Origin: a virus
DNA: 24,466 bases
Strand: one strand, 5' to 3'
IMG/VR virus record: IMGVR_UViG_3300028173_000644
Span: 1-24,466 of that record
Shown piece by piece: positions 2,043-17,670 of this stretch (positions within the stretch are counted from its first letter, which is position 1; each line of letters opens with the position of its first letter). The notes beneath the pieces are model-generated. The model searched no databases and had not been told where the DNA came from. It saw only the letters and a list, made by a program, of their open reading frames with translations. The position numbers were made by a program, and so were the translations under genes.

Positions 2043-2230
2043 GGGGCCTCCTCCTGCGCCCTGTACTGCACCACCTCGCCGTCTGGCCGCAGCCAGATCA
2101 GCCGGGCCAGACTCTGGCGCACGGCCGGGGGCAGGGCGGCCCACCTTCGGCGCAGGTCCTCGATGGAGTCCACCACCTCACGCACGGGGGCAAGGTCCAC
2201 GGTGAGGCAGACGGTGGAGTCGTTGGTCAC
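2024..2230 (-). CDS. Small hypothetical phage protein, 68 aa
   Basis: It starts at GTG 2230, overlapping the portal stop in a GTGA junction, and ends 19 bases inside the head-protein gene, so it is translationally coupled on both sides. The protein is mostly helical in appearance (VREVVDSIEDLRRRWAALPP) and has no recognised domain. Its position between portal and Mu F-like genes suggests a structural accessory or chaperone, but nothing in the sequence shows this. The gene call rests on the tight junctions and a plausible composition. Confidence 0.7.
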   Translation of the reverse strand: MTNDSTVCLTVDLAPVREVVDSIEDLRRRWAALPPAVRQSLARLIWLRPDGEVVQYRAQEEAPCPSTR

Positions 2231-4284
2231 TCCTCGCCCCCGTCCTTCCGATTCGCCAGGAACGGGAAGGTGGCGACGACACGGTCACCGCGCCGCAGCT
2301 CCAGGCGGGAGGCGATCCAGCCCGGGGACTTGTCCTCGTCGCGCTCGGCCACCCAGTCGCGCTGTAGCTCCAGCAGGCGCCCGACGTCCTCGGGCCTCAT
2401 GGTCTCGCTGTATCCCAAGGTCTCGTGGGCTCGGTAGCCGGGGAACTGCTTGGCGCTCACCATGTGGGCCAGAGCGCGCAGCAGCTTCTCGTTGAGCTCG
2501 CGGAGGGTCCAGCCGTCGTGCTCGAGCACCGCGGCCGTTCCCAGCACCTGCAGCCCGGAGGTCGCCATGCGCTGGGGGCTCATGGTCTCGGCGATGGGGC
2601 GGGCCAGGGCTTCCACCTCGCCGTCCCTGGCTGGGTCCACGTCGCCCAGGTAGAGCACGGTGACGTGCGGGGGCTCGTCGTGGGCCAGCGGGCCGACGAT
2701 GGCCTCGGCCTTCCTGCGCCACTCTGCGTGCTCCTCGATGCCTGCCTGGGGGACGGGCACCAGCAGGCACAGGGAGTCCTCGCTGGCGTCTGCTCGGTCT
2801 TGGGCCTGCTGGGCGGCGATCTGCTCCTCGATCATCCTGCGCGCGGCCTCCTCCGCCGCGGGGTCATCGGGCGTCGGGGTTCGCGCGGGCTTGGGATCGT
2901 CCTCCACCGGCTGCATCGAGTGCCTGTAGCCCCCGGGCTGGGCGTAGCGCTGCTTCCTGATCTCGTCCGGGGTCAGCACCCCGTCCATGATGGCGGCGGC
3001 GTCGGCCTGGGTGTGGACGAGCCTGATATCGGCCTGCTCCTTCTCGGACAGATCGCCCAGCGGCAGGAAGTCGATCGACCACTCCTTGGGCAGCGCGTTG
3101 CGCTCGACGTGGTAGAGCACGGTCACAAGCTGGCGCAGGGGCGGCTCGTAGCGGTCGATCTGCCAATCGGCCACGGCCTGGTACCAGAGGGATTGCCAGC
3201 TGCTGCCGTCGGTGTTCAGCCCTCCGGGCGCCTCGCCGAACAGCAGGGTCACGGGAGCCCCGAGCATCAGGGAGAGCTCCAGGCGGGCGTGGTCGGAAAT
3301 GTCCTTGTAGCCGCTGGGGTTCGCGGCCACGCGCTGGAAGTCGTCGCCCGGGGTGAGCAGCACAGACTGCGCCACCGACTTCATCATGTTGAGCTTGCGG
3401 ATCTGGCTGATCCAGTTCGCGCTCTCGTCGCCCGAGGTACGCGTCGGCGCGATCTTGAACACGGCGATTGATAACTCCTGGGCGATGCGAGCCCCGGACG
3501 CCCCGGTCTGGGACAGGTTCCGGATGGAGTCCCACAGCATCTGTCCGATCGGGTCCGCGCCCCACGCCGCCGAGTAGCCCTGGTTGGCGAACGCGAGTTC
3601 GGAGGGGGGCAGGTCGTCGCCGTAGAACCGGAGCAGGCGAGAGGCGTGCACGTCGGTCAGGGACCGGCGGGGCTTGTCCTGGGTGCTGGAGTACCCCGTC
3701 CGCCTTGGCGACAGGTGGTAGTGGGTGGGCATCCCCAGGGGACCGGCCTCGATATCGCTGTTGTAGCGAACCGGGAAGATCTCCCGACGATCGAAGATCT
3801 CCAGGCGATGGATACGCTTCACCTTGTCAGGCCGAAGCGGCTTGTTGAGCGGGTCCGGGTCGTCGGTGACCATCAGAACCAGACACTCACCCATGGCGCG
3901 GCCCCATGTGTCGGCGCGGCGGAACACGCGGCGGACGTCAAGGTCCCGCATCGCCTGCTGTAGGGGGCGTTCCTCGTCGCTGTCGTCGGAGATGGCGCAC
4001 CACTTCGCGGTCGCCCAGGACGGGTGCAGCTGGCAGATCCGCCGGTAGAGCCCGCCGCGGAGCATGGCCACGAGCTCCTCGGCCGTGAGGTAGTCCCGTT
4101 CGATGTTGGGACGGGCCTGGGCCCCGGAGTCGCGGTAGCCGCCGAGCCCGGAGATGGCGTTGCTGACAGCGGCCCCAGAGAGGTTCTGCTCGCTGGAGTA
4201 CGTCGAGTCGGCGCGCAGGCTCGGGGGGGCGACAGGGGCGGGTGGGCCGATGACGAGGTCGCGAAGTCTTGAGCGGACGGACAT
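2227..4284 (-). CDS. Phage portal protein (DUF1073/Acb1-N family) with C-terminal 2H phosphodiesterase-like domain
   Basis: The protein is 685 aa. The start is ATG 4284 (MSVRSRLRDL), chosen because AGGAGG lies just upstream; the longer frame to 4311 has no such site. Residues ~30-470 match the DUF1073 portal family: AGPLGMPTHYHL, SRLLRFYGDDLPP, LELSLMLGAPVTLLFGEAPG, GLNTDGSSWQSLWYQAVADW. Portals form the dodecameric DNA channel at the capsid vertex, and the terminase and head genes flank it as expected. The last ~170 residues are a separate module with two His-x-Thr motifs, HVTVLYLG (His540) and HETLGY (His620). This is the arrangement of 2H phosphoesterases, including the anti-CBASS enzyme Acb1, whose name is attached to this portal family. 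Between the two modules lies a Pro/Ala/Glu-rich linker. The portal role is well supported; enzymatic activity of the tail is inferred. Confidence 0.9.
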   Translation of the reverse strand: MSVRSRLRDLVIGPPAPVAPPSLRADSTYSSEQNLSGAAVSNAISGLGGYRDSGAQARPNIERDYLTAEELVAMLRGGLYRRICQLHPSWATAKWCAISDDSDEERPLQQAMRDLDVRRVFRRADTWGRAMGECLVLMVTDDPDPLNKPLRPDKVKRIHRLEIFDRREIFPVRYNSDIEAGPLGMPTHYHLSPRRTGYSSTQDKPRRSLTDVHASRLLRFYGDDLPPSELAFANQGYSAAWGADPIGQMLWDSIRNLSQTGASGARIAQELSIAVFKIAPTRTSGDESANWISQIRKLNMMKSVAQSVLLTPGDDFQRVAANPSGYKDISDHARLELSLMLGAPVTLLFGEAPGGLNTDGSSWQSLWYQAVADWQIDRYEPPLRQLVTVLYHVERNALPKEWSIDFLPLGDLSEKEQADIRLVHTQADAAAIMDGVLTPDEIRKQRYAQPGGYRHSMQPVEDDPKPARTPTPDDPAAEEAARRMIEEQIAAQQAQDRADASEDSLCLLVPVPQAGIEEHAEWRRKAEAIVGPLAHDEPPHVTVLYLGDVDPARDGEVEALARPIAETMSPQRMATSGLQVLGTAAVLEHDGWTLRELNEKLLRALAHMVSAKQFPGYRAHETLGYSETMRPEDVGRLLELQRDWVAERDEDKSPGWIASRLELRRGDRVVATFPFLANRKDGGEE

Positions 4285-4311
4285 GAGGCCTCCTGGCCAG
4301 AATGATAGCAC

Positions 4312-5910
4312 CTAACCCAACATGTCGAACCAAGACCGCTGCGAGACCTGCCCCTCGTCCTCACGGGTCCAGCGCATGTGCAGCTGGCTGCTCGCGTCCA
4401 TGTCATCGTCGTTGGCGCCCAGCGGGAAGGCGACGATGTTCTCGATGTAGTCGCCGACCCAGTGCGCGATCTCTGGCGCTGGGAGGATGATGGCGCCGGC
4501 CTCGGCTGCGCGCTGCAGGTACCTGGCTCTCGCCGCCTTGGACTTGTCCGAGCCCGGGGTGTCCTTGTTCGGATGGAACCGCACCAAGGCCACGCCCATG
4601 TAGTACGGAGACCTGGCGTCCAGGTAGTTCGTGCCGTTTGCCGTGTCCTCTACGAGGCAGCCCCCGGAGGTCCGGACGATGAACCTGGACCACTTGGCGA
4701 TCATCGCGTCCATGGCGAGGAAGTATTCGATGGACCCCATGCGGGCGTAGGTCCGGTCGAGCAGATAGCGCTTGCCGTCCTTCCTCGCGTGGCACTGGAT
4801 GGCGTTGTAGTCCGCCTCGATCGTTCCCTTCTTCGCGGCGTCCGCGGTGACCCAGACCTCGTCAGCGGTGGCGGCGATGTCCTCGGGCTCGCAGTGGTAG
4901 CGCTCGCGGAACCACTCGCGCTTGACCGCGCCGCCCTCGGACGGCGTCGGGTTCATCTCCAGTTGAGCCTCTGCGTGCCGACCCAGGGCCCGGCGGAGCT
5001 CGGCGATGACCTCGTCGGTGTGACGGGCCGGATGCAGGCGCTCCCCTGGCGTCGTGCGGGGATCGTCCTCGGAGGCGTGCTCGTGCTCCGGCGCGTAGTG
5101 CATCGGCAGGCACAGGACCTTCCAGCCGCCCTCCCGCAGGGCATGGCCGGCGGGGTCGTTGACGTGCAGACGCTGCATCACCAGGGTCTTCGGGGCGTCC
5201 CGGGGGTCGTTGACGCGGGTGGTCAGGGCCTGGTCGATGATGATGTGGGCCTCGTGGCAGCGCTTCTCCACCGCCTCCGGGCCGCCGAGGATCACGGCCT
5301 TGACGTCGAGCGGGTCGTCGATGACCATCTTGTCGCCGCGCTTGCCGGTGACCCCGGTGCGCAGGGTCAGGCACTGGCGAAAGCCGCGCGAGGTGTTCTC
5401 GAAGTTGCGCTTCTCCTGCTGGTCCTGGGCGAACACCCAGGGCTTGGAGTCGTGGCGCCGGCACCACTCGGCGAGCAGTTCCTGATAGGTCGGATCCTTG
5501 AGGGCAAGGCGGGTGCGGCGGCTGTCCCTGGTGGACAAGTCATCGTCCCCGGTGAAGAACAGGCTCCGGCCCCCGGGGTTGAACAGCCACTCGTAGGCGG
5601 GGGCCATGACCGAGACCAGGATGGACTTGGCTGTGCCCGGGGGGAGCAGGATCAGCAGCTTCCGGTACTCGGGATCCCCCAGCATCTGGCGGTGGAGGTA
5701 GTGGCAGACCACGGACATGAACGGGGCCCACTCGAGGTCCCGGGGCTCGACAACCGGCCACATCAGGCGGACGAACGCCTCGAAGGCGCCGTCCCGCTCG
5801 TGGCGGAGGGCCTTCTCCATCAGCCGCGCTCGGATCTTCGCCTTCCTGCGCCTGGCCTTCTCGGCGCGGATCTGCGCCCTCCTGGCCTGGCGAGGGGTGG
5901 GCTCCTGCAC
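4312..5910 (-). CDS. terL: Terminase large subunit (packaging ATPase/nuclease)
   Basis: It is a 532-aa protein starting at GTG 5910, with GGAGGAG five bases upstream overlapping the end of the small-subunit gene. The N-terminal ATPase has a terminase-type Walker A, LLPPGTAKS (residues 89-96), and a Walker B, MVIDDP (195-200), with Asp-Asp in place of the usual Asp-Glu. TLVMQRLHVNDPAGHAL looks like the coupling motif segment. The C-terminal RNase H-like nuclease shows acidic clusters at WVTADAA (Asp357), CLVEDTANG (Glu421, Asp422) and GANDDDMDA (about 498-506). Length and motif order are normal for the family. It pumps DNA into the procapsid through the portal encoded next, 27 bases downstream. 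The highly basic first 30 residues may contact DNA. Confidence 0.95.
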   Translation of the reverse strand: MQEPTPRQARRAQIRAEKARRRKAKIRARLMEKALRHERDGAFEAFVRLMWPVVEPRDLEWAPFMSVVCHYLHRQMLGDPEYRKLLILLPPGTAKSILVSVMAPAYEWLFNPGGRSLFFTGDDDLSTRDSRRTRLALKDPTYQELLAEWCRRHDSKPWVFAQDQQEKRNFENTSRGFRQCLTLRTGVTGKRGDKMVIDDPLDVKAVILGGPEAVEKRCHEAHIIIDQALTTRVNDPRDAPKTLVMQRLHVNDPAGHALREGGWKVLCLPMHYAPEHEHASEDDPRTTPGERLHPARHTDEVIAELRRALGRHAEAQLEMNPTPSEGGAVKREWFRERYHCEPEDIAATADEVWVTADAAKKGTIEADYNAIQCHARKDGKRYLLDRTYARMGSIEYFLAMDAMIAKWSRFIVRTSGGCLVEDTANGTNYLDARSPYYMGVALVRFHPNKDTPGSDKSKAARARYLQRAAEAGAIILPAPEIAHWVGDYIENIVAFPLGANDDDMDASSQLHMRWTREDEGQVSQRSWFDMLG

Positions 5911-5912
5911 GG

Positions 5913-6662
5913 CTACTCCTCCACCCCGTAGGCCCCGTCCTGCTCGTGCAGGTCGATGGCGTCCGCGCGGCCGTCAGCCTCCAGGGCGGCCAGTTCTGCG
6001 TCGAGCTCGGCGTCGGTCTTGTCCTCCAGCCCGTGGGTGACCGTGACGCCTCCAGCGTGCTCCACCGTGCTGCTCTTGCCATGGCCGGTGCGGTCGAGGG
6101 CCATGGTGGCGAGCAGGCGAAGTTCGTTGTCGTCCATCGCTCCAGCGTCCAGGCGCTCCTTCAGTTGTGCCAGGGCCTGGCCTGCGACCTCCCGTAGCGT
6201 GCGCCTGACCTGCTCACTGTGCTCGTCCAGGGCGTCCTCCAGCGCTGCAGCAAAGCCGGGCTGTCGCTTCCACTTTCGGATCGTCCTGGGCACGACGCCA
6301 GCGAACTCCGCGGCATTGATGTTGCTCTCTCCCACGGCGAGGGACTCGAGCGCGAGCCGCTGTTGCGGAGTGAACCTCACGTCCTCTGGATCGAACCGGA
6401 CCACCGGAAGACGTTCCTCCCGCTCCGTTCGTTCGTTCGTTTCCCGTTCGTTCGTTTCTCCCGCGTTCGTTCGTTCGCCGTTCGTTCCGTTCGCTTCCAC
6501 CCCGTTGCGCCTCTTGTCGCGAAACACCATGGCCCGGAGCTTGGCCCGGGGATGCCCGGTGCGGCTGGTGACCACCGAGTACGGGATCGGCTTGGGATAC
6601 CCCTGCCGCTTCCCAAGCATATCCAACACCTGGTCTCGTTCCTTGGCGGACATGCGGGCCAT
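5913..6662 (-). CDS. terS: Probable terminase small subunit
   Basis: The gene sits directly upstream of terL and starts at ATG 6662 in a TGATG overlap with the helicase stop, with GGAGGGG eight bases before it. Residues ~94-137 (FTPQQRLALESLAVG, then NINAAEFAGVVPRTIRKWKR) form a helix-turn-helix of the kind small terminase subunits use to recognise packaging sites. A predicted helical oligomerisation region follows, then an acidic tail. Residues 57-84 are an unusual Thr-Asn-Glu-Arg repeat, produced by a tetranucleotide tract in the DNA. This is probably a disordered linker between a first DNA-binding region and the helix-turn-helix. The call rests on position plus the helix-turn-helix. Confidence 0.82.
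   Translation of the reverse strand: MARMSAKERDQVLDMLGKRQGYPKPIPYSVVTSRTGHPRAKLRAMVFRDKRRNGVEANGTNGERTNAGETNERETNERTEREERLPVVRFDPEDVRFTPQQRLALESLAVGESNINAAEFAGVVPRTIRKWKRQPGFAAALEDALDEHSEQVRRTLREVAGQALAQLKERLDAGAMDDNELRLLATMALDRTGHGKSSTVEHAGGVTVTHGLEDKTDAELDAELAALEADGRADAIDLHEQDGAYGVEE
6426..6494. repeat. CGTT tetranucleotide repeat tract within the small terminase gene
   Basis: On the plus strand the tract contains clusters of 4, 3, 3, 2 and 1 CGTT units separated by short TC or CC interruptions. On the coding strand it reads GAAC/GAACG and gives the Thr-Asn-Glu-Arg repeats. A 4-bp unit makes the tract prone to slippage frameshifts. In several phages the packaging site lies inside the small terminase gene, so this is a candidate recognition site, by inference only. 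Confidence 0.75.
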
Positions 6663-8023
6663 CAGCAGTACCCCTCCCCGCCGCCGTACGGGCCTTCATG
6701 CCGCCGGCCAAGGTCCGAAAACGTCTGATACTCCCCACTCCACCCCATCTCGACCGTCCCCTTCGGCCCGTGCCGGTTCTTGCTCACGATGACCTCGGCA
6801 AGACCGCGCTTCTCGGTGTCGGGGTTGTACTCCTCCTCGCGGTAAATGAAGATCACCATGTCCGCGTCCTGCTCGATGGCCCCTGACTCGCGGAGATCCG
6901 CCATCCTGGGGCGCTTGTTCTCGCGCATCTCAACACCGCGGTTCAACTGGCTCAACAGCAGCACGCAGATCTTGAGCTCCTTCGCCAGCAGCTTGAGTCC
7001 GCGACTCATGCCGGCCACCTGCTGCTCTCTGTTCTGCCGCCTGTCCTCTGCCTCGAGCAGCTGCAGGTAGTCCACCACGAGCAAGCCCAGGTTCGGCTCG
7101 CGGGCCTTGAGGCGCCTCGCCAGGGACCGCAGGCGCGAGACGGTACAGGACACGTCGAGCCAGTGGATGGGCAGGCCGTGTAGCGCCTCCGCCGCGTCAG
7201 CCATCCTCGCGTGATCGTCCGTGCGGCTGGCGAGGATGCCGTTTCGGATCGAGGTGGTGTTGACCCTGGCCTCGGATGCGAACTGTCGATCAACGCACTG
7301 CTCGGCGATCATCTCCTGGTTGACGACGGCGACGGTGATGTGCTCGGAGGCCTTGCGGGCGATGTTGAGCGCAAGGGCGCTCTTGCCCATGGCGGGCCTG
7401 GCCGCAAGGACGATCAGGTCCCCGCCCCGTAGACCTCCCGTCTTCGCGTCGAGCTTCGGGAAGCCCGTGGACGTCCCCGCCACGGCCTGGTGCATCAGGG
7501 CCGCGGTCCGCTCCGCCTTGAGCTGGTAGCAGCGATCCACCACGTCGGCCTGCGTCCGCCACTCGTCGCGCACGGAGGACCCGGCTAGCCTCTGCAGCGC
7601 CTTCTCGCCCTGGGCCAGCACGTCGGAGACGTCCTCGCCCTGATAGGCGCCCTCGAGCAACTCGTGGGCGGTGACGATGGCGCGGCGGCGGAGGGCCCGG
7701 TCCCGCAGGAGGGCGGCGTAGATCTCGATGTTCTGGGTGGACGGCACGCCCTCGGGCAAGCCGGAGATGTACGCGGCGCCCCCGTAGGTCTCGTGGCCTC
7801 GCTGCACGGCGAGATCCACGGCGACCAGGGAGTCGCAGGTGGGGCGCTCGCCCTTACCGTTGACCTCGGAGATCAGACCCCAGAGCTGTCGGTGGGCCTC
7901 GCGGTGGAAGTCCTCGCCGTTGACCTCGTCGCGGAGGATGAGCCAGCAGGAGGGGTCCAGGAGGCAGGCGCCGAGGATGGCGCGCTCTGCGTCGAGGGAG
8001 GAGGGGATCTTGCGTTCGGTCAT
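6662..8023 (-). CDS. dnaB: Replicative DNA helicase, DnaB family
   Basis: It is 453 aa from ATG 8023, which overlaps the preceding stop (ATGA) and has GGAGG eight bases upstream; an in-frame ATG at 8038 is less well placed. Residues 1-110 are the DnaB N-terminal domain (SLDAERAILGACLLDP, HREAHRQLWGLI). The RecA-like ATPase begins near 185 (STGFPKLDAKTGGLRGGDLI). Walker A is ARPAMGKSA (208-216) and Walker B is LLVVDYLQL (314-322). LLLSQLNR (356-362) and the later MADLRESGAIEQDADMV motif are classical. It would unwind the phage fork, recruited by the initiator encoded further upstream in the same operon. Length is normal for the family. Confidence 0.97.
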   Translation of the reverse strand: MTERKIPSSLDAERAILGACLLDPSCWLILRDEVNGEDFHREAHRQLWGLISEVNGKGERPTCDSLVAVDLAVQRGHETYGGAAYISGLPEGVPSTQNIEIYAALLRDRALRRRAIVTAHELLEGAYQGEDVSDVLAQGEKALQRLAGSSVRDEWRTQADVVDRCYQLKAERTAALMHQAVAGTSTGFPKLDAKTGGLRGGDLIVLAARPAMGKSALALNIARKASEHITVAVVNQEMIAEQCVDRQFASEARVNTTSIRNGILASRTDDHARMADAAEALHGLPIHWLDVSCTVSRLRSLARRLKAREPNLGLLVVDYLQLLEAEDRRQNREQQVAGMSRGLKLLAKELKICVLLLSQLNRGVEMRENKRPRMADLRESGAIEQDADMVIFIYREEEYNPDTEKRGLAEVIVSKNRHGPKGTVEMGWSGEYQTFSDLGRRHEGPYGGGEGYC

Positions 8024-8229
8024 CTGCTCATCCTCCATTCGTACAGCACCCGCGCCTCACGCTCCGCGCCCTCTGCGAGGCATCGTCGCTGGTGCTCGTT
8101 TCGTCGTCTCATCGTAGCCGAGATCCGCTGTCGTCTCCGCTGCTCGCGCAGGACCGCCACACAGGCATCGTGGGCGTCCCATTCGCAGGCGAGGCGAGCG
8201 AGGATGGCGGCTTGGTGGGCGGGAGTCAT
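8020..8229 (-). CDS. Small hypothetical protein, 69 aa
   Basis: ATG 8229 overlaps the upstream stop in an ATGA junction, and its own stop overlaps the helicase start in another ATGA. The protein (MTPAHQAAILARLACEWDAH) is strongly basic in its second half, with runs of Arg and Gln, and looks wholly helical. The frame continues upstream to 8358 but without a good ribosome binding site. No domain is recognised; a nucleic-acid-binding role would fit the charge but is not shown. Confidence 0.6.
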   Translation of the reverse strand: MTPAHQAAILARLACEWDAHDACVAVLREQRRRQRISATMRRRNEHQRRCLAEGAEREARVLYEWRMSR

Positions 8230-8350
8230 GGGGCGGTCCCGAACAGCCCGCACTGCCCATCCAGCAGCCCAGCCGATGGCTCGCACCGCAACGACGGCAG
8301 AACCGCCGCGATGTACTCGCGCCCGTCCTGGTCGGGCTCGATGCATGTAG
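8226..8350 (-). CDS. Possible short gene of uncertain start
   Basis: The minus-strand frame ending at TGA 8226 reads EYIAAVLPSLRCEPSAGLLD before stopping in an ATGA overlap with the next gene. This is the junction style of every real neighbour. No ATG, GTG or TTG with a ribosome binding site is seen between the stop and the divergent HNH gene that begins at 8397; the frame runs on antisense to that gene. It may be a gene whose 5' end was displaced when the HNH gene inserted. The end is better supported than the start, which I place only approximately. Confidence 0.35.
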
Positions 8351-8367
8351 CGTTCCACTGTTTGGCG

Positions 8368-8396
8368 TGGTATACTCCACCTAACGGAGGAACGAT
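8368..8396 (+). promoter_or_regulatory. Extended -10 promoter and ribosome binding site of the HNH gene
   Basis: TGGTATACT at 8368-8376 is an extended -10 (TGn plus TATACT). No convincing -35 is seen 17 bases upstream. GGAGG at 8386-8390 lies six bases before ATG 8397. The endonuclease gene therefore seems to have its own promoter, opposite to the surrounding operon. Confidence 0.45.
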
Positions 8397-8861
8397 ATGC
8401 GTCAATGCCAAAACTGTGGAAAGCCGATCAGAACCAGAAACGCCAAGCGGTTCTGTTCTCATGCCTGCTACGCGGAAAGCCGCCGCGGGTCGTTGGGGCC
8501 TGGCAACTTCAAGCCGGGCAAAGTCCCGGCCAACAAGCTTCCTGTTGGCTCTGTGACTTTCAGATCGCGCCCTGGGCGCAACCAGGCGGCTCGGGCGTGG
8601 GTCAAGATCGCTGAGCCGAACGTGTGGAGGCTTCGCGCTCAGGTTGTTTGGCTGTCCGCTGGGTGTAAGATTCCGGACGGTATGGTCCTTCACCACGTCA
8701 ACGAAGACAGGACGGACGACAGGCTCGAGAACCTCGAGTGTCTCACAAAGGCTGAGCACCTCGCCGTCCATCGCGAGGACCACGCAGCGAAGCGCAGGGA
8801 GGGCCTGCTCCGAGCATGGAAGAGGCGGAAGGCTGACACTCATGCGAAAAGCCCCTCCTGA
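8397..8861 (+). CDS. HNH homing endonuclease, free-standing
   Basis: This 154-aa protein starts at ATG 8397 behind GGAGG. The N-terminus has a four-Cys zinc site (C4, C7, C20, C24: CQNCGKP and FCSHAC). Residues ~94-126 carry the HNH core: DGMVLHHVNEDRTDD with His99 and His100, then Asn112 in RLENLECL, then His121 and His125. This matches the HNH_3 homing type found widely in phages. It is transcribed against its neighbours and overlaps the 3' end of the methyltransferase gene by 22 bases. That is the usual picture of a mobile nuclease gene inserted between phage genes. It would make a double-strand or nicking cut in DNA lacking the insert. Confidence 0.92.
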   Translation: MRQCQNCGKPIRTRNAKRFCSHACYAESRRGSLGPGNFKPGKVPANKLPVGSVTFRSRPGRNQAARAWVKIAEPNVWRLRAQVVWLSAGCKIPDGMVLHHVNEDRTDDRLENLECLTKAEHLAVHREDHAAKRREGLLRAWKRRKADTHAKSPS

Positions 8862-9559
8862 ACCCCATCCGATTCGGCCTGAGCCAGTCGTCGGGCAGCG
8901 ATCTCGAGGTATGCGGGCTCACGCTCGATCCCGATGAAGCGCCGACCCTCACGCAGCGCCCCAACCCCCGTGGAGCCTGACCCGCAGAACGGATCAAGCA
9001 CGCGCGTTGCTCCGGTCCACTTCACGAGCTGGGCGCACAGATCAGCCGGCTTCTCTGCTCCGTGGTGGGCATGGCTGCCGTACGGCCAACGATGCCGGAT
9101 CACAGCGGGCAGTGTCCTTGGGATGATCTCTGGATCGTGCTTCCAGTCAGGGCCACGGATGAACCCGATCATCTCGAAGCCAGCACGGAACGGAGAGCCG
9201 AGCCCGATGCTTTCACGGTCCCACACAAGCGCCTGAGACTGACGCCAGGCGCTCGCGGTCTGTCTGTCGATCCCACCAGCGATGGACCCGTGAAGAGCCG
9301 CTATCATCCTCCAGTCCGAGAACAGAAAGCCGCAGGATCGGCCGTCGAGACACGCCGAGATCCTCTCCCACGCACCACGGAACCAGTAACTCCAAAACTG
9401 GGTATCAGTCGCGGAGTCGCGCCCGCTCGTGTTTCCGCCCGCGGTCGCGTACGGGGGATCGCTTACGATCCCGTTTGCGCACACGCCAAGCTGAGGCAGG
9501 ACGTCGAACAGGTCTCCACTGTAGAGCGTCCACCGCTCGCCGGAATCAAACGGCTTCAT
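8840..9559 (-). CDS. DNA adenine-N6 or cytosine-N4 methyltransferase, DPPY type
   Basis: The 239-aa protein starts at ATG 9559 with GGAGG six bases upstream; the adjacent GTG at 9562 is an alternative. The catalytic motif DPPY is at residues 34-37, and the S-adenosylmethionine site DPFCGSGST is at 189-197. The catalytic-motif-first order is that of the beta class. No target-recognition domain of notable size is inserted, as in short phage enzymes such as Dam-like and CcrM-like proteins. It would methylate phage DNA, most simply against host restriction. It is one of three methyltransferase signatures in the window. The target sequence cannot be read from the protein. Confidence 0.93.
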   Translation of the reverse strand: MKPFDSGERWTLYSGDLFDVLPQLGVCANGIVSDPPYATAGGNTSGRDSATDTQFWSYWFRGAWERISACLDGRSCGFLFSDWRMIAALHGSIAGGIDRQTASAWRQSQALVWDRESIGLGSPFRAGFEMIGFIRGPDWKHDPEIIPRTLPAVIRHRWPYGSHAHHGAEKPADLCAQLVKWTGATRVLDPFCGSGSTGVGALREGRRFIGIEREPAYLEIAARRLAQAESDGVQEGLFA

Positions 9560-9761
9560 CACGAGCCTCCCACCACGTAGCGACTTCGTGGGCTGCGTCC
9601 CATACGTCGTCGGGAATCTGCTCTTCTTCCCAGTTGCTCACATCGGCCCATGCCTCCCCGAGTTTCGTTCGCTTCACCTCCCCGCAGTCGTCGTACTCGT
9701 CGCTGTTGAACCGAAGTTCGTCAGCCATCCAGCGTTTCATTTCTGTCCATTGGATTCTCAT
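9546..9761 (-). CDS. Small acidic hypothetical protein, 71 aa
   Basis: ATG 9761 overlaps the stop of the 27-aa gene upstream (ATGA), and the 3' end overlaps the methyltransferase start by 14 bases. The protein is rich in Asp, Glu and Trp (MRIQWTEMKRWMADELRFNS, then EEEQIPDDVWDAAHEVATWW). Small acidic phage proteins are sometimes DNA mimics or enzyme inhibitors, but no specific family is recognised. Its coupling to the methyltransferase suggests joint expression. Confidence 0.7.
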   Translation of the reverse strand: MRIQWTEMKRWMADELRFNSDEYDDCGEVKRTKLGEAWADVSNWEEEQIPDDVWDAAHEVATWWEARDEAV

Positions 9762-9841
9762 GCTTGCTCCATCGTCGGATAGATGCTCTCGGCGTAGGCG
9801 CGGTGAATGGTTCCGCGGCGGAGGTCGTAGCGGTCAGGCAT
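9758..9841 (-). CDS. Microprotein, 27 aa, coupled on both sides
   Basis: ATG 9841 lies inside the last codons of the upstream replication gene. A GGGAG plus G-rich stretch precedes it, and its TGA overlaps the next ATG. The sequence begins MPDRYDLRRGTIHRAYAES. It is too short for family assignment. The call rests on the conserved junction style and ribosome binding site; it could instead be only a coupling element that carries ribosomes to the next gene. Confidence 0.5.
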   Translation of the reverse strand: MPDRYDLRRGTIHRAYAESIYPTMEQA

Positions 9842-11315
9842 GACACCCCCCCCACTCCCGCCGGTACGCCTCACAGAGCCTCTTCTCCCGCTCCCTGCGG
9901 GTGTACTGGGTGACCTCGCCGACCCACCGCCGGCCGCCGCAGCTCGAGACAGCCCGGGCCAGGGCGGCGTGGGTCCTGTCGTCCTCGTGCCAGCGGTCGA
10001 AGTGCTCGCCGTGGCGCACGACGATGGCCAGGGCGTGCGCGAAGGCCTTCTCGGGGGGCAGGACGTAGCCGTTGTGGGCATGTGTTTCCGATCTGGAAAC
10101 ACCTCGCCGCCGCCTCTCCCAGTCCTTCGCCTGCTCGTGGTACCCCCCGCGGTTCCGGGCTCGGATGACCGTCTCGGGGTTCTTCCTGGTCTCGCGCAGG
10201 AACACGGCATCGCCGTCGCCCTCGCGCCCCTCGGAGATCCAGCGGGCGATGAGGGTCCACGACTCCCATCCGCCCATCTCCTTCGCACCAGCGGTCAGCC
10301 ACTTTCTCCACTGCGGCTTGAGCGCCCAGGAGCGGCCCACCGCGGCGTTGATGGCGGCCCAGGCTACGTCAGGTAGTCCTTGACCAACGGGCTCGTCTCT
10401 CTCATTTTCGGGCGCTTTCCGTGCTGGTAGACGACCCTGACTGTCACGAACTCCCTCGTCGCGTCGCACCACCCCTGTTCCACCATTCGTATGCTCCTGC
10501 TGAGCGCTGGTTGCCCCTCTACATCCGTGACCCATTGCTGTCTGTGCGGGCACCACGACTGGCCCACTTGGCGGATCTGTCGTTGCTGCTGATTCGTGCT
10601 GGTGGTGGGCATGGTCCTTCCTTGTGGCGCTGGCTTCGAATCTGCGGTTTGCTTCTTGGGGAGGCCTACGGGCCGACCCCTTCTGCCGTCGTTCATCGGA
10701 CGAGCCGACAGCGGCACCCGCGTCAGCGGGTGAGGCCCCGGGAGGGGCCGGCGCTGTTGGTGTTCTTGTGTCTGGGTGTAGGTGTGTAGGTGTGTCTAGA
10801 CGCGCGTGGGGAGAATCGCTGGAGAGCGGCTGGAGAGCGGCTGGAGAATCGCTGGAGGAATTCCGTCCATTCCCGGCGTTCGTCCGTTGCGGGTTTGGAG
10901 AATCGCTGGAGAGCGGCTGGAGAGCGGCTGGAGAATCGCTGGAGGGGTCGCCCCAGACGTCCTCCTCCTTGAGCGCCTTCCTCGTGGGCCAGTCTGTCCA
11001 TCCCCACCGCTCACGCAGCGCTGGCCTTCCCGGCCTGTTTGCTCGCCCCATCCGCTCCTGGTCTGCCCACCACCGCAGGTCCATCCAGACGGCCTCACGC
11101 GGCCACGGCTTCTCGAGGCTGGCGGCTACGAGCGGCCACCAAGCCGCGTCACATGGCACCCAGGGGCGCCTCCGTTGCTGTCTCATGTCGCTCTCGCTGG
11201 TTCGCCCTTGCCTGCCGCTGATGGAGGAGATGGCCTCCATGCCCCCAGCCGCACCACCGGTCATGACTCCGGCGGTAGGCGGCTGGTCCAGCGAGGATGG
11301 GCATGGAGGCACCAT
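9834..11315 (-). CDS. Replication-initiator-like protein with winged-helix N-domain and repeat-encoded linker (possibly more than one gene)
   Basis: The ATG at 11315 follows GGGGAG of the junction repeat; a later ATG (11186, MRQQRRRPWVPC) is an alternative start. The first ~130 residues contain a Trp-rich winged-helix-like region (AAWWPLVAASLEKPWPREAV, then RERWGWTDWPTRKALKEEDV). The linker holds two copies of SSDSPAALQPLSSDSP encoded by DNA iterons, then a Pro/Thr-rich stretch. The C-terminal ~165 residues (LPDVAWAAINAAVGRSW, GGWESWTLIARWISEG, FLRETRKNPETVIR) look like a helical replication-protein domain. The architecture recalls lambda O, whose gene contains the origin. Between about 10370 and 10612 this frame has AT-rich third positions while another frame is better, so the single 493-aa protein may really be two genes or an overprinted linker. 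Confidence 0.6.
   Translation of the reverse strand: MVPPCPSSLDQPPTAGVMTGGAAGGMEAISSISGRQGRTSESDMRQQRRRPWVPCDAAWWPLVAASLEKPWPREAVWMDLRWWADQERMGRANRPGRPALRERWGWTDWPTRKALKEEDVWGDPSSDSPAALQPLSSDSPNPQRTNAGNGRNSSSDSPAALQPLSSDSPHARLDTPTHLHPDTRTPTAPAPPGASPADAGAAVGSSDERRQKGSARRPPQEANRRFEASATRKDHAHHQHESAATTDPPSGPVVVPAQTAMGHGCRGATSAQQEHTNGGTGVVRRDEGVRDSQGRLPARKAPENERDEPVGQGLPDVAWAAINAAVGRSWALKPQWRKWLTAGAKEMGGWESWTLIARWISEGREGDGDAVFLRETRKNPETVIRARNRGGYHEQAKDWERRRRGVSRSETHAHNGYVLPPEKAFAHALAIVVRHGEHFDRWHEDDRTHAALARAVSSCGGRRWVGEVTQYTRREREKRLCEAYRREWGGCHA
10364..10612 (-). CDS. Out-of-frame 82-aa gene overlapping the initiator linker
   Basis: The ATG at 10612 has AAGGAAGG four to five bases upstream, a strong ribosome binding site. 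The protein has two similar segments, SWCPHRQQWVTDVEG and GWCDATREFVTVRVV, which look like a duplicated Trp-Cys-strand unit, and ends KRPKMRETSPLVKDYLT. About four fifths of its codons end in G or C, as in the true genes here. The overlapping initiator frame ends about half its codons in A or T over the same stretch. The frame is also open further upstream to 10717. I recognise no family. Either it is a separate gene or one half of a frameshifted product. Confidence 0.6.
   Translation of the reverse strand: MPTTSTNQQQRQIRQVGQSWCPHRQQWVTDVEGQPALSRSIRMVEQGWCDATREFVTVRVVYQHGKRPKMRETSPLVKDYLT
10715..10749. other. Two adjacent short inverted repeats beside the iteron region
   Basis: CACCCGC-gtca-GCGGGTG (10715-10732) is a perfect 7-bp stem with a 4-base loop. 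It is directly followed by a GGCCCC/GGGGCC pair with a short loop. They lie between the GT-rich tract near the iterons and the 82-aa gene. They could form a transcript hairpin or an origin structure. No T-run follows, so a simple intrinsic terminator is not supported. Confidence 0.4.
10764..10797. other. GT-rich, cytosine-poor tract next to the iterons
   Basis: The plus strand here is almost entirely G and T, with repeated GGTGTGT and GTGTAGG units and very few C. It sits 10-45 bases from the first iteron block and encodes a Thr/Pro/His-rich linker in the initiator frame. Strand-asymmetric, easily melted tracts beside iterons are typical of origin unwinding regions, so this is a candidate melting element. 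Confidence 0.35.
10810..10944. repeat. Eight 11-bp iterons in two identical 48-bp blocks (candidate replication origin)
   Basis: Each block is A-B-B-A plus GGAG, with A = GGAGAATCGCT and B = GGAGAGCGGCT. Block 1 is 10810-10857 and block 2 is 10897-10944, so the block starts are 87 bp apart. An 11-bp period places successive sites on nearly the same face of the helix, as initiator-binding iterons do. They lie inside the gene of the presumed initiator, as the lambda origin lies in gene O. Confidence 0.8.
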
Positions 11316-11320
11316 ACAAT

Positions 11321-11350
11321 CTACTCCCCTCGGGCGCAAGCGGCAGCCTC
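11321..11350 (-). repeat. Junction repeat copy A (stop codon plus ribosome binding site)
   Basis: CTACTCCCCTCGGGCGCAAG at 11321-11340 continues identically with copy C to 11350. On the coding strand it encodes the last residues Ala-Cys-Ala-Arg-Gly-Glu and TAG of the zinc-ribbon gene. It also supplies GAGGGGAG as ribosome binding site for the initiator ATG at 11315. Confidence 0.85.
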
Positions 11351-11497
11351 ACGCTCCGCGCGCCGCGCCATCGCCTTCTGGTGTCGCTCAGGGCCGTTCT
11401 CGTCACGCCACCACCCGCACAGGCAGAACTGGCCGCGAATATGGAACCCGGCGCGCTTTGTCTTGGCGCCACACTTTGGGCAGCAGGGGTGAATCAT
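11321..11497 (-). CDS. Small zinc-ribbon protein, 58 aa
   Basis: ATG 11497 overlaps the methyltransferase stop (ATGA). The protein begins MIHPCCPKCGAKTKRAGFHI and has CPKC followed by CLCGWW, a four-Cys zinc ribbon. A basic helix follows (RRAEREAAACARGE). Its tail is encoded by the junction repeat shared with two unrelated genes, so the last eight residues are not part of the fold. Likely a nucleic-acid-binding accessory protein; no specific family is identified. Confidence 0.75.
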   Translation of the reverse strand: MIHPCCPKCGAKTKRAGFHIRGQFCLCGWWRDENGPERHQKAMARRAEREAAACARGE

Positions 11498-12162
11498 CCC
11501 TGTCTCCACAGCCGAGCCATAGCCATAGTGTGCCGCTTCGGGTCGATCTCGGCCCCGAGGTAGCGCCGACCCGTAGCGAGACAGGCACGGGCCATGGGGG
11601 CGAGGCCGGCGTAGAGATCGAGCACGAGGTCGTCTGGCTCGGTGAACGCCTCCACGAGCGCTGACAGCCATTCTGCGGGCTTCTCGCTGTGGGCCTGACG
11701 AGGGGACCCGTATCCGTTCCGGGCGCAGCCAAGCGGCTTGGGGGCGCCCTTGACGTACAGCAGCAGCGGCTCTGTATCGCCGCGCCAATGGAAGCCGACG
11801 CCGAGCCCGCTGGTCTTGTGCCACGAGCCGCCCGACTTGTACCGCCATCCGATCTCGTGTCCAGCCGTCAGCCACTCCTCGAGCTTCGGCCAGGTGCACC
11901 AGCAGAGCAAGTAGGCGTCATCGGCGGCGCTGTCGTAGGCGGCGCGAAGGTGGGCGCCGATGTCGGCCATTGTGAGTAGTCCGTACTCGTCTTCGGCGTT
12001 GCCCTGGACCGCGGCGTTGTCGTATTGCCACGGCGGATCCGCCATCACAAGCCGCGCTCCTCGGCACTCGGTCAGGATCTCGGCCACGTCGCAGCAGCGC
12101 AGGTCGATCCCGGGCTTGGTCGGGTGCGCGCGTTGACCCCATAGGTCAGCCTGTTTGCTCAT
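11494..12162 (-). CDS. MT-A70 family DNA N6-adenine methyltransferase
   Basis: The 222-aa protein starts at ATG 12162 with AGGAG eight bases upstream. DPPW (residues 42-45) in LVMADPPWQYDN is the MT-A70 catalytic motif. Later WKTSG-like and RHSEKP-like elements appear as GGSWHKTSGLGVGFHWRG and RQAHSEKPAEWL. The C-terminal VLDLYAGLAPMARACLATGR is the cofactor-binding segment. Phage members usually methylate adenines to evade restriction. It leads the sub-operon that continues into the zinc ribbon and the initiator, and a promoter candidate lies upstream. Confidence 0.92.
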   Translation of the reverse strand: MSKQADLWGQRAHPTKPGIDLRCCDVAEILTECRGARLVMADPPWQYDNAAVQGNAEDEYGLLTMADIGAHLRAAYDSAADDAYLLCWCTWPKLEEWLTAGHEIGWRYKSGGSWHKTSGLGVGFHWRGDTEPLLLYVKGAPKPLGCARNGYGSPRQAHSEKPAEWLSALVEAFTEPDDLVLDLYAGLAPMARACLATGRRYLGAEIDPKRHTMAMARLWRQG

Positions 12163-12302
12163 GTTTCAACTCCTGGCGGTGTTCCGTCCCTCCCCGCACC
12201 CCCCGGGGATCAGCCGAGGGGCCCTGGCACGGCCAGGCAGGGAGTTGATGGGACTCGCGGCTTGTGGCCGCACGGTGAGCATACCACGATGGCGGGGTGG
12301 GG
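12163..12302. other. Intergenic leader of the methyltransferase-initiator operon
   Basis: This 140-bp gap holds a promoter candidate at its far end and a perfect inverted repeat CCTGGC-acg-GCCAGG at 12223-12237. The repeat would form a hairpin in the leader transcript about 60 bases before the start codon. A weak reading frame across the gap (12146-12334) has no ribosome binding site and does not look like protein. Confidence 0.5.
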
Positions 12303-12306
12303 TCAT
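12278..12306 (-). promoter_or_regulatory. Promoter candidate for the MT-A70-initiator operon
   Basis: On the minus strand, ATGACC, a 17-base spacer and TATGCT with a TGG extended -10 are present. The -10 hexamer and spacing equal those of the two promoters in the 18.1-18.3 kb control region. The -35 overlaps the last codons of the sigma-like gene. Confidence 0.5.
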
Positions 12307-12662
12307 CCCCAAAGCCTCCCCACGTCCAGCGCATCCGGCATCGGAGAGAAGGCGTCAGCGTCGTCCCCGATCTTCACCCAGCGCCAGTCAAGCCGGTTCC
12401 CAACCCCGCGCTCGTACCTCAGCCCCATGTGGTACTTGAGCCGCCGGATCGCTCGCGTCCGGATATCGGCCACTCGCGCATAGGTGAGCCCTACGCCTCC
12501 GTCCATCCTTGGGCACGTCGCGGCTGTCTGCCGCTGCGTGAGGCCGTGCATCCAGCACAGGATGACGTGGCGGTCCTGCTCGTCGTCCAGGGTCGCGAGG
12601 GCCTGACGGGCAAGGTAGACGATCTCCTGTGGGGCGAGGCGTGGGTAGGCGTGGAGGGTCAC
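12303..12662 (-). CDS. Sigma-70 region 4-like helix-turn-helix protein, 119 aa
   Basis: The GTG start at 12662 is chosen because GGGGAG of junction repeat B lies five bases upstream. Residues ~20-75 (LATLDDEQDRHVILCWMHGL, TQRQTAA, then TYARVADIRTRAIRRLKYHM) follow the pattern of sigma-70 region 4. In that domain a Gln-rich recognition helix is followed by a basic helix, and it binds -35 elements. The sigma region 2 core-binding part is absent, so this resembles small phage regulators of late transcription rather than a full sigma factor. The last ~40 residues are unassigned. It precedes a promoter that could be one of its targets. Confidence 0.55.
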   Translation of the reverse strand: MTLHAYPRLAPQEIVYLARQALATLDDEQDRHVILCWMHGLTQRQTAATCPRMDGGVGLTYARVADIRTRAIRRLKYHMGLRYERGVGNRLDWRWVKIGDDADAFSPMPDALDVGRLWG

Positions 12663-12664
12663 AG

Positions 12665-12684
12665 CTACTCCCCTCGGGCGCAAG
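12665..12684 (-). repeat. Junction repeat copy B
   Basis: The same 20 bases as copies A and C start exactly at the stop codon (CTA on the plus strand). Similarity extends about five bases further with a single extra G, which shifts the upstream frame so the preceding residues read Pro-Pro instead of Ala-Ala. It gives the ribosome binding site of the sigma-like gene. Confidence 0.85.
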
Positions 12685-13027
12685 GCGGCATGGGATTCAC
12701 GCGCAGCGAGGACGTGTCCATGCCGAGTTGGCGCGCGACGAGGATGGTGTGCATCCTGGCGTCTTTCACGATCTCGTTGACCCCGTGCGGCAGGCTCGGA
12801 TCGTTCCCGCACGCCCAATACTGGCTCTTCCGGCTACCGATCTCGAGCATGACGATCGGCTGCCTCGTCTTGCGGTGGCGGGGCGAGATCCAGTCCAAGG
12901 TCTCGTGCTTGCTCGATCTCACGGAGATCCGATACGGGCCGATGGTCGCCCACGGTGCCCACGTATGGCCGCGCCAGTGGAACGCCGGAAAGTGGCGCTC
13001 GACAATGGATTTGTAGGTTTCGCGCAT
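12665..13027 (-). CDS. Hypothetical protein, 120 aa
   Basis: ATG 13027 has GGAGAG five bases upstream, formed by the end of the Cys-rich gene. The protein (MRETYKSIVERHFPAFHWRG) has a globular look with several Trp and beta-like stretches (TWAPWATIGPYRISVRSSKH), then NEIVKDARMHTILVARQLG. It ends PPCARGE, the last residues coming from junction repeat B. No family is recognised. The frame is open further upstream to 13189 without a better start. Confidence 0.7.
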   Translation of the reverse strand: MRETYKSIVERHFPAFHWRGHTWAPWATIGPYRISVRSSKHETLDWISPRHRKTRQPIVMLEIGSRKSQYWACGNDPSLPHGVNEIVKDARMHTILVARQLGMDTSSLRVNPMPPCARGE

Positions 13028-13029
13028 CG

Positions 13030-13359
13030 CTACTCTCCGCATCCAGCACAGCAGGAAGATCCCCGCCCGATGCAGTCGCGGCCCTGGCTGGTGAAGCCGT
13101 AGGAGTCGCACTCGCTCGGGTGCAGGCGGTCCTCTGGGATCTGACTCATACGCCCGGCCACGCTGTCGCAGTCGGGCGAGCATACCCACACGCCGTCAGC
13201 GATCTCTGCGCCGTCAGGATGCGACGGGCACGAGTAGTCCCACCCGTCAATCTGCGCCACGTCGGCCACTGGCTCGGCTCGCTCGCAAGTATGCACCGGA
13301 GACCCGCAGACACAGCATGGCACGATGGGGGCGGCGGGGTCGCAGCATGTGGGGATCAT
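13030..13359 (-). CDS. Cysteine-rich protein, 109 aa, probably metal-binding
   Basis: ATG 13359 overlaps the upstream stop (ATGA) and has AGGAGG five bases before it. Fourteen Cys residues are spread over the length: IPTCCD, VPCCVCGSPVHTCE, DYSCPSH, WVCSPDC, SECDSYG, RDCIG and SSCCAGCGE. Several CxxC-type pairs suggest two or three zinc sites. No defined family is recognised. It lies in the run of small accessory genes upstream of the regulators, and a nucleic-acid or protein-interaction role is only a guess. Confidence 0.72.
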   Translation of the reverse strand: MIPTCCDPAAPIVPCCVCGSPVHTCERAEPVADVAQIDGWDYSCPSHPDGAEIADGVWVCSPDCDSVAGRMSQIPEDRLHPSECDSYGFTSQGRDCIGRGSSCCAGCGE

Positions 13360-13607
13360 CTCTTCCTCCTGGTTGTCTCGTTGATCTCGTCGTCCTTGAA
13401 TCTCTCGAGCCGCGCAAGACGCAGGCGCCCGACGAACAACGAGCACCGCTCACGGTCCTTGTCCGTGATCCGCGGCTCGTCCAGAACCGGCGGGCGGACG
13501 TGCTCACCTTCGTTCATGCGCTGGACCTCGTCCACGAGGTCGCCGACCCTGCCGGCCCGAACCCGTCTGTCGTAACGGGTGAATCGGGCGTGGATCGTGT
13601 CCGCCAT
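13356..13607 (-). CDS. Hypothetical protein, 83 aa
   Basis: ATG 13607 has GGGGAG six bases upstream, supplied by junction repeat C. The protein is basic and charged (MADTIHARFTRYDRRVRAGR, then VGDLVDEVQRMNEG) and ends in a basic tail, NETTRRKR. A helical, possibly DNA-associated protein would fit, but no domain is recognised. Its stop overlaps the Cys-rich gene start. Confidence 0.68.
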   Translation of the reverse strand: MADTIHARFTRYDRRVRAGRVGDLVDEVQRMNEGEHVRPPVLDEPRITDKDRERCSLFVGRLRLARLERFKDDEINETTRRKR

Positions 13608-13610
13608 TGG

Positions 13611-13640
13611 CTACTCCCCTCGGGCGCAAGCGGCAGCCTC
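13611..13640 (-). repeat. Junction repeat copy C
   Basis: It is identical over 30 bases to copy A. It forms the end of the truncated cytosine methyltransferase gene and the ribosome binding site for the 83-aa gene whose ATG is at 13607. Confidence 0.85.
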
Positions 13641-13754
13641 CAGGGTCCTGCACGCCGCCTCGTTCCATTCCACGCAGAGCAGGTGGTCCATGCCTGCGCG
13701 TTTCAGGCCGATGGCGGCGCCGCCTGCCCCGGCGAATAGCTCGAGGACGTTCAC
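13611..13754 (-). pseudogene. Truncated C5-cytosine DNA methyltransferase (N-terminal 47 aa)
   Basis: It starts at GTG 13754 (TAGTG overlap), with GGAGGG seven bases upstream. MNVLELFAGAGGAAIGLKRA is motif I of C5-cytosine methyltransferases (FAGAGG, residues 7-12), and LLCVEWNEAACRTLEAA is the next conserved segment. A full enzyme needs about 250 more residues, including the Pro-Cys catalytic motif, which are absent here and in the downstream frames. The reading frame ends inside junction repeat C. This looks like a remnant cut at a recombination junction; a short expressed peptide cannot be excluded because its ribosome binding site is intact. Confidence 0.85.
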
Positions 13755-15993: not shown

Positions 15994-16641
15994 CTATCGG
16001 GCGGTTTGAACTTGTTCGATTCGCCGGCCGGCGTCTGCAATCAGGCCGGCCTCGGCTTCGTTGTGATCCTCGATGAGCAGGCCGCCAGGAATGCGCCGCG
16101 CAAGGTCGATACAGTCCTGCTTTCCGCACTTTCTTGGCAGGCCAACAGTGGTCCGCCACTCCGCCACCGACAGCCGCGACGGGTAGAAGCCCAGCGCCCT
16201 GAACAGGGCCTGCTCCACGCGCCCCAGGTAGGCGCCCAGGCCGACCCAGGACTTGACCGAGCCCGAGCCCTTGCGCGCCGCCACGGGGCGTTCTGCGCTG
16301 CCTCTAGTGGCATGGCGGGCCCCACAGATGCGGGCGAGCTCGGCAGCTACCACCTCGAGCTCATGCCCGCCGCGCTCGTCCTGGGCGTCACGCCACCGCA
16401 CGACCCAGAACGCCACGAGTTGCCCGTCGTCGTCCAAGAGCGCGATCCCCGTCGTGGCGCCAGGGTCGATGCCGATGTGGTACCGCTGGAGCCTGGAGGG
16501 CCTGGGCTTGGGGGCGGGCTGGACCAACTCCTGCTGCTCGTGGCAGGCCTCGGCGAGGTAGCCGACTCCGCACGCCTCGCAGTGGTGGCGCTGGATGGCG
16601 GGCTCCCACTTGGTGGGGTGGCCCTTGGGGCAGTGGATCAT
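15994..16641 (-). CDS. RuvC-like Holliday junction resolvase with N-terminal zinc finger
   Basis: ATG 16641 overlaps the upstream stop. Residues 1-33 contain CPKGH, CEACG and a further Cys, a zinc finger. The RNase H-fold core starts at 54 with YHIGIDPGATTGIALLDDDG (Asp59), as in RuvC and related phage resolvases. Glu residues follow at GGHELEVVAAEL (about 94-101). The C-terminal DHNEAEAGLIA (192-202) matches the His-x-x-x-Asp-Ala-type catalytic end of RuvC. It would resolve replication or recombination junctions before packaging. Zinc-finger fusions of this kind are less usual than bare RuvC folds. Confidence 0.85.
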   Translation of the reverse strand: MIHCPKGHPTKWEPAIQRHHCEACGVGYLAEACHEQQELVQPAPKPRPSRLQRYHIGIDPGATTGIALLDDDGQLVAFWVVRWRDAQDERGGHELEVVAAELARICGARHATRGSAERPVAARKGSGSVKSWVGLGAYLGRVEQALFRALGFYPSRLSVAEWRTTVGLPRKCGKQDCIDLARRIPGGLLIEDHNEAEAGLIADAGRRIEQVQTAR

Positions 16642-17108
16642 GGCGCGGCCTCCAGGGCGGCGACAGCCACAACGAGCGCCTCTTCGCGAGACTGCGGTAT
16701 GACCAACGGAGACGTGTCCCAGAAAGCGTCAGGGGCAATCGCCTGGCCCTGCTTTCGGCCCGTGCTGTGCCTCACGAGCCAGCCAACGATTCCCCATCCG
16801 TCTTCGCCGATCCTGTCGTAGCTCGGATCGGTGTAGACAGGGCCGCCGACAGATTCCTCGATGAGTCCTTGCACGGCGCCGCGGGTGGCGTCGTCCCTCA
16901 AATCCGGCCACGCGTCGTGGAAGATCGCCGCGTTCTCTGGCCTGACCCGGTGGTCGCCGTCGCAGATCCCGCCGTGGATGGTGCCGCAGTCGTAAGACCA
17001 CGACACGCGCCGGCCTTGGTCGTCGAGCATCCCCGGCCGCCACGCGAACCGGGGGCACGCTACGAGCCGCTGACCGAGGGCGCGGGCTTGGTCTGGGGTG
17101 GGGGTCAT
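16638..17108 (-). CDS. Hypothetical phage protein, 156 aa
   Basis: ATG 17108 overlaps the upstream stop (ATGA). The sequence begins MTPTPDQARALGQRLVACPR, with FAWRPGMLDDQGRRVSWSYD, AWPDLRDDATRGAVQGLIEE and a C-terminal SREEALVVAVAALEAAP. This pattern is familiar from many phage hypothetical proteins, but no function is attached to it that I know of. It is coupled to the resolvase gene. Confidence 0.75.
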   Translation of the reverse strand: MTPTPDQARALGQRLVACPRFAWRPGMLDDQGRRVSWSYDCGTIHGGICDGDHRVRPENAAIFHDAWPDLRDDATRGAVQGLIEESVGGPVYTDPSYDRIGEDGWGIVGWLVRHSTGRKQGQAIAPDAFWDTSPLVIPQSREEALVVAVAALEAAP

Positions 17109-17320
17109 GATGCCCCCGTCTTCCAGTCCCCGTCCGCATCCAGATGCGGAGGCGGCCACCCGCGCGCCCTGATGTTCAGGTGGCGCATGAGCCGGTTCCA
17201 GACCAGGAACACGATCCTGAACGGGTAGGCAGCCAAGGACGCGCCCAAGACGGCCAGCAGGAAGGCGCCACAGAACGGCCAGAAGCCGGAGAAGGCGTAG
17301 CTGAGGTAGGCTTCGGTCAT
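17105..17320 (-). CDS. Small membrane protein, 71 aa
   Basis: ATG 17320 overlaps the previous stop. A hydrophobic segment at residues ~12-42 (FWPFCGAFLLAVLGASLAAY, then FRIVFLVW) could form one long or two short membrane helices. A basic stretch follows (NRLMRHLNIRARG), so the C-terminus is probably cytoplasmic. No motif identifies it. Candidates are a superinfection-exclusion or membrane-anchor protein; this is inference from topology alone. Confidence 0.7.
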   Translation of the reverse strand: MTEAYLSYAFSGFWPFCGAFLLAVLGASLAAYPFRIVFLVWNRLMRHLNIRARGWPPPHLDADGDWKTGAS

Positions 17321-17670
17321 GATGCCTCCACCGTCACGACCCGGCCCATGCCGAGGCGTTCGCATTCGCGGGCGATGGCCAGCACGTTGTCGATGCTGTA
17401 GCTCCGCATCATCGGCGTATCGGTACCGTCCGGCATGCTCGCCACCAGCGGCCAGATCGCCATCTGCTGCGGGATGCCTTGCCAGACGAGGGCGAGGGCG
17501 TGCTCCCATCCGGTCACGTCGGTCGTGCCCCACAGCGTTCCGGCGCCGATCCACTTGGTCTCGCCGGGGCGCAGGAATGCAGAAGCCACGACAGCGCCGG
17601 TCCCAGCCTTGTCGTAGAGTAGCAACGACTCCAGCCGCTCGCAGGGGATGAAGAGGATGTGGTGGGTCAT
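17317..17670 (-). CDS. Hypothetical protein, 117 aa
   Basis: ATG 17670 overlaps the previous stop (ATGA). The sequence MTHHILFIPCERLESLLLYD continues into a region that looks globular (GETKWIGAGTLWGTTDVTGW) and ends in a helix near NVLAIARECERLGMGRVVTV. No known domain is recognised. It belongs to the coupled series between the regulator and the membrane protein. Confidence 0.7.
   Translation of the reverse strand: MTHHILFIPCERLESLLLYDKAGTGAVVASAFLRPGETKWIGAGTLWGTTDVTGWEHALALVWQGIPQQMAIWPLVASMPDGTDTPMMRSYSIDNVLAIARECERLGMGRVVTVEAS

Follow-up and report, generated by a model that had tools for sequence, protein, structure and literature searches.

Short sequences at gene boundaries of phages

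Conserved boundary sequences of lambdoid phages are reportedly short, lie at module edges and have been proposed as recombination points. In phage Island3, genes 67 and 68 have a common 60-bp 3' end that gives their products the same 18 C-terminal residues, while Brujita has one recombinant copy; the available part of the report reads this repeat as the outcome of homologous recombination at short boundary sequences (PMC3029335). Corndog gene 14 is bordered on both sides by a 17-bp direct repeat that is found once in the relatives, as described in the accessible portion of the source (PMC4351075). Start-associated sequences (SAS) of the cluster K mycobacteriophages have a 13-bp consensus and occur in 11-19 copies per genome across the cluster, according to the excerpt at hand (PMC3203893), and their function is said, in the sections available of two reports, still to need experimental proof (PMC3203893, PMC12699233). 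In those parts of the literature that could be consulted, it is still a matter of debate whether mosaic genomes arise through short common sequences or through illegitimate joining at random with later selection (PMC3029335, PMC3945230).

The repeat reported here belongs to an IMG/VR-type virus record, probably a fragment, which was analysed over its whole length of 24,466 bases (the window). The record codes for a terminase, a portal protein and a DnaB-like helicase; short repeats of the CGTTCGTTCGTTTC type are found at 6430-6492, inside the terminase small subunit gene (5913-6662). Three near-identical contigs (99.6-100%; L008, L009 and L010) span the window from position 1 to 7778, 8212 and 9839, respectively. 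Since all of them end within 7778-9839, the right-hand 14.6 kb are known from this record only. Protein searches that started from the repeat region and from its right-hand neighbour gave no second contig over the repeat region. They yielded either distant relatives (initiator-like gene, N6/N4 methyltransferase) or no relative, and among the sequences found there was none with the same gene order across this region.

Three gene junctions with a common stop codon and ribosome binding site

The 20-mer CTACTCCCCTCGGGCGCAAG, originally noticed at 11321, 12665 and 13611, is present there in three exact copies (Table 1). No further copy was found on either strand of the record at up to 3 mismatches, and 100 dinucleotide shuffles of the window gave 0 matches. 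The genes are encoded by the minus strand, and in their orientation the repeat reads CTTGCGCCCGAGGGGAGTAG. The original prediction saw a module made of a stop codon and a ribosome binding site; every copy does lie at a TAG, but on the coding strand the repeat ends, and does not begin, at this stop of the upstream gene. All three copies read TGC GCC CGA GGG GAG TAG, that is CARGE followed by the stop, and this tail, correctly predicted to be shared by unrelated proteins, is the sole feature common to the three upstream products. The GAGGGGAG of the repeat is placed 5-8 nt ahead of the next start at all three junctions, the spacing from GGAG being 8 nt in A (ATG 11315), 5 nt in B (GTG 12662) and 6 nt in C (ATG 13607). 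Translational coupling at these junctions is plausible from their geometry. All copies in the record (3/3) are found at stop/start junctions and none away from them.

Table 1. Repeat copies and neighbouring open reading frames in the window
Feature	Position	Strand	Description
Repeat copy A	11321..11350	-	20-bp core 11321-11340 and 10 bp common to copy C
Repeat copy B	12665..12684	-	20-bp core; five more matching bases past a one-base indel
Repeat copy C	13611..13640	-	Core 13611-13630 and 10 bp common to copy A, these 10 bp being part of the methyltransferase codons
Initiator-like ORF	9834..11315	-	Downstream of copy A; start ATG 11315 or ATG 11186
58-aa cysteine-rich (zinc-ribbon-like) ORF	11321..11497	-	Ends in copy A; no phage relative at E<=1
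N6/N4 DNA methyltransferase	11494..12162	-	Inside segment A-B; PF01555, E=1.9e-12
119-aa ORF (GTG start)	12303..12662	-	Starts after copy B; weakly similar to sigma-70 region 4
120-aa ORF	12665..13027	-	Ends in copy B; matches no family and has no phage relative at E<=1
83-aa ORF	13356..13607	-	Starts 6 nt past GGAG of copy C; no family match
47-codon ORF (GTG start)	13611..13754	-	Ends in copy C, where the N-terminal part of a C5 cytosine methyltransferase breaks off

The uninterrupted match is 30 bp long between copies A and C, as predicted, 21 bp between B and C and 20 bp between A and B. The one-base indel predicted for copy B just outside the core was also confirmed: with one extra C in this copy, five more bases (TGCCG) match leftward. 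It is conceivable that a good Shine-Dalgarno sequence overlapping a TAG stop was selected for at each of the three junctions, which thereby came to resemble one another, and for the Shine-Dalgarno and stop part of the repeat such convergence could explain the recurrence, GGAG-TAG-C being found in near form also ahead of the starts at 13027 and 5910. However, nine more bases to the left of this part are identical in all three copies, and such a triple match was obtained in 0/20,000 simulated sets of 24 junctions (a pair in 0.3%). The simulations refute convergence for the full tract, leaving it a negligible chance, and show that the three copies share descent.

Several other origins were discarded. 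An RNA switch or hairpin is contradicted by the lack of a common fold of the three copies (z-scores 0.01, -1.99 and 0.08), by an accessibility of the Shine-Dalgarno sequence within the range of other starts and by the lack of an Rfam match. An antisense or trans partner was dismissed because the window has 0 copies of the 20-mer in reverse orientation at up to 3 mismatches. Duplication of the segments A-B and B-C was rejected as well, the best similarities being exact matches of at most 13 bases and 90% identity over 20 bases.

A selected element of the SAS type, serving as the binding site of a factor from phage or host that jointly controls how the three downstream genes are translated, would account for the constant place relative to the starts, the Shine-Dalgarno sequence inside the repeat, the single orientation, the location in a non-structural region and the identity of the bases left of the Shine-Dalgarno sequence. 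The distant relative L088 also has a start-associated family of its own, CCAAGGAGAACAMCATGACCAC, at several starts (six match at up to 6 mismatches, two of them exactly). Against such an element stand the presence of three copies only, in one record, the unequal lengths shared by the pairs, the lack of a common RNA structure and the fact that no relative was found in which conservation could show. It is thus an unlikely explanation.

A second common start sequence, GGRGGCATCATGACC, is found at two gene starts of the window (17103-17117 and 17315-17329, minus strand), with weaker versions at 4279 and 18113.

A methyltransferase gene cut at copy C

The original prediction overlooked a truncated methyltransferase gene, namely the ORF whose end lies in copy C. 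Roughly its first 42 codons match positions 2-43 of the 324 in PF00145 (E=7.5e-9), and the match halts exactly at the left edge of the repeat. No other PF00145 match exists in the record, so that a gene split by insertion between repeats, which would leave a second piece, was rejected. In a scan of viral contigs all relatives of the fragment (29/29) run past the truncation point: in 28 the reading frame closes after 210-502 codons, and in the remaining one it stays open to the contig end at 170. A domain match that ends at the repeat, where all 29 relatives found continue, identifies copy C as a rearrangement junction. Judged from these comparisons, at least one repeat copy is the mark of a rearrangement. 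A tblastn search of the phages with the 47-aa fragment gave nothing even at E<=10; since viral relatives exist, this search is insensitive for so short a query.

The methyltransferase might also be the source of the repeat, the core being decayed coding sequence of this gene and copies A and B having received from copy C a piece of pseudogene with a chance ribosome binding site. The 10 additional bases that A has in common with C are indeed methyltransferase codons in C (LEAA, with LEAAG in L107), and at the equivalent position L120 agrees with the core along 14 bases with a single gap. The similarity of the core to 18 relatives is, however, not significant (P = 0.12 and 0.11 for DNA, 0.24 and 0.29 for one peptide frame); the in-frame reading CARGE had a slightly higher raw score. 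Such a descent of the repeat is improbable.

An assembly artefact was also considered, in which the metagenome assembler joined contigs through the common 20-30-mer. The length of the repeat is close to small k-mer sizes, and the region is covered by no second contig found. Yet a mis-join needs the 20-mer beside each flank anyway: the three left flanks, including the cut methyltransferase, would be real, and an error could lie solely in which left flank is joined to which right flank. This makes an artefact very improbable.

Genes following the repeat

The genes that receive their ribosome binding site from the repeat differ in how securely they are defined. The label sigma-like, given beforehand to the 119-aa ORF, is weak, the evidence being a PHROG 351 match at E=0.002 and a Pfam Sigma70_r4 match under its cut-off. 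For the predicted initiator, the GGAG of copy A is well placed with respect to ATG 11315, but the start itself is uncertain: the homologues in L088 and L089 begin at the equivalent of window residue 44, which is ATG 11186. The gene served by copy A is for this reason less certain than the other two.

The initiator-like protein family has no PHROG or Pfam match, and candidate relatives in GTDB genomes were rejected (83 pattern matches, 0 confirmed). The gene and its six viral relatives (L088, L089 and L091-L094) hold 4-8 copies of an in-gene 8-mer, mostly with a CCAGC- or CTCC-like core; those of the window are at 10802-10945. This array looks like a replication origin. In three relatives the gene is directly preceded by a hairpin that is rich in G+C and whose loop (GGTNGCTCC) is similar in each (L088 about 7950-8010, L089 about 9880-9950, L091 just upstream of 10000). 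The L088 and L089 hairpins have no Rfam match.

Repeats between start regions of other phage loci

Start regions were compared at 1,519 sites, defined mechanically, in 109 phage loci that are not a random sample, as they came from helicase, initiator and methyltransferase searches. Loci shorter than 4,000 bases were left out, as were L001-L003 and L090, which derive from the window, and two controls (L124, L125). Stretches of at least 17 nt are in strong excess within loci, being shared by 15/18,941 within-locus pairs, 3 of these 15 coming from the window that prompted the survey, versus 1/949,789 pairs between unrelated loci, a figure lowered by differences in base composition between loci. 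Within-locus repeats of start regions are present in 10/109 loci and their sequences are mostly unrelated, with the qualification that L110, L112, L115 and L117 are related contigs with much the same motif and that L017 is of low complexity.

A survey of 120 loci (1.31 Mb) gave 94 isolated repeat pairs of at least 17 nt, both strands counted. In 7 pairs from 5 loci both copies are at a Shine-Dalgarno/start site, while a random 20-nt stretch passes in 0.94% of draws. No repeat of at least 17 nt passed the start-repeat filters in HK620; five passed in the TM4 stretch, two of them holding the SAS. Taken together, these counts hint that private start-junction repeats are widespread.

In L092, two genes that differ elsewhere have the same 36-42 nt (7050-7085 and 7617-7652), which take in the Shine-Dalgarno sequence, the start codon and seven initial codons (MIAKIND).

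Probable spread of the repeat by recombination

It is probable that recombination placed copies of the repeat at three junctions within a single phage, and that they were kept for the working ribosome binding site that they carry. The tract of 20-30 bp comprises the last codons of one gene, the stop and a strong Shine-Dalgarno sequence that serves the gene after it. Recombination at short homologies, by deletion, insertion or patch-like copying, would have spread it. Each copy would be retained because the downstream gene gains a well-spaced and probably translation-coupled ribosome binding site, and the repeat could later serve as a crossover point. The absence of mismatches together with the unequal match lengths fits copying of a tract better than a motif of fixed length kept by selection. 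The methyltransferase cut at copy C, the well-spaced Shine-Dalgarno sequence at all three starts, the lack of a common RNA fold, the excess of start repeats within phage loci and published cases of like anatomy speak for this reading too. Common descent and the junction at copy C support the original prediction in part, as regards the junction repeat itself; its exchangeable cassettes, the segments A-B and B-C, are hypothetical.

Some observations weigh against spread by recombination. Among the sequences found there is no relative with or without the segments, and the direction and mechanism of copying were not observed. The tract might also serve some purpose in addition to its Shine-Dalgarno sequence. 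None of the ORFs scanned was recognised as a single-strand annealing recombinase; the ORF at 15994-16641 looks like a RuvC resolvase and that at 21561-23636 like an SbcC ATPase. The minimum for Red-beta recombination is about 30 bp in the portion of the source available (PMC3945230). The A-C pair alone reaches about this length, copy B sharing just 20-21 uninterrupted bases with A or C, which is short for a Red-type reaction.

As a more general and still tentative proposal, many phages might grow a private translation-start repeat, a ribosome binding site tract copied from junction to junction that provides incoming or rearranged genes with a ready-made start. The window would then have been caught soon after the spread, its methyltransferase cut by the same process, and the start-region repeats of the surveyed loci would result from this process too.

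Comparison with described systems

The window repeat can be set beside four described kinds of short sequence, as these are portrayed in the available parts of the reports. With the SAS it shares an internal Shine-Dalgarno sequence, a position a few nt before starts, a single orientation, an association with non-structural genes and, as in some SAS, an upstream stop codon. It differs in number, the SAS being present in 11-19 copies across a whole cluster and the window repeat in three, and in sequence: the SAS consensus GGGATAGGAGCCC has 0 matches in the window at up to 2 mismatches and 8 in the TM4 stretch.

Boundary sequences of lambdoid phages reportedly recur between different phages, whereas the window repeat was found in no other record searched. 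Its 17-mer has no match in any IMG/VR contig, its 20-mer none in GTDB genome contigs, and the 20-mer was found in 0/9 related records; the phages collection, queried with the 4.6-kb region only, gave no match either.

The resemblance to Island3 and Corndog lies in a direct repeat, tens of bases long, at the ends of genes, in common C-terminal residues of unrelated proteins and, at copy C, in the sign of a rearrangement. In Island3, too, unrelated neighbouring genes have a common 3' repeat and hence the same C-terminal tail, but that repeat is of 60 bp in two copies, and a near-identical relative has a single copy and lacks the gene, while the window repeat is of 20-30 bp in three copies. In Corndog a short direct repeat is likewise found at the stop/start junctions around a small gene; there presence and absence are seen among five phages, as compared to one record for the window. 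The repeat is thus of a kind already in print, to which the gene cut at copy C and the hint from the survey are added. A junction repeat in triplicate with a gene cut at one of its copies is a small concrete case for the view that mosaics form through short common sequences. Such repeats can be counted across phages, which suggests that the question of mosaic origin can be tested at scale.
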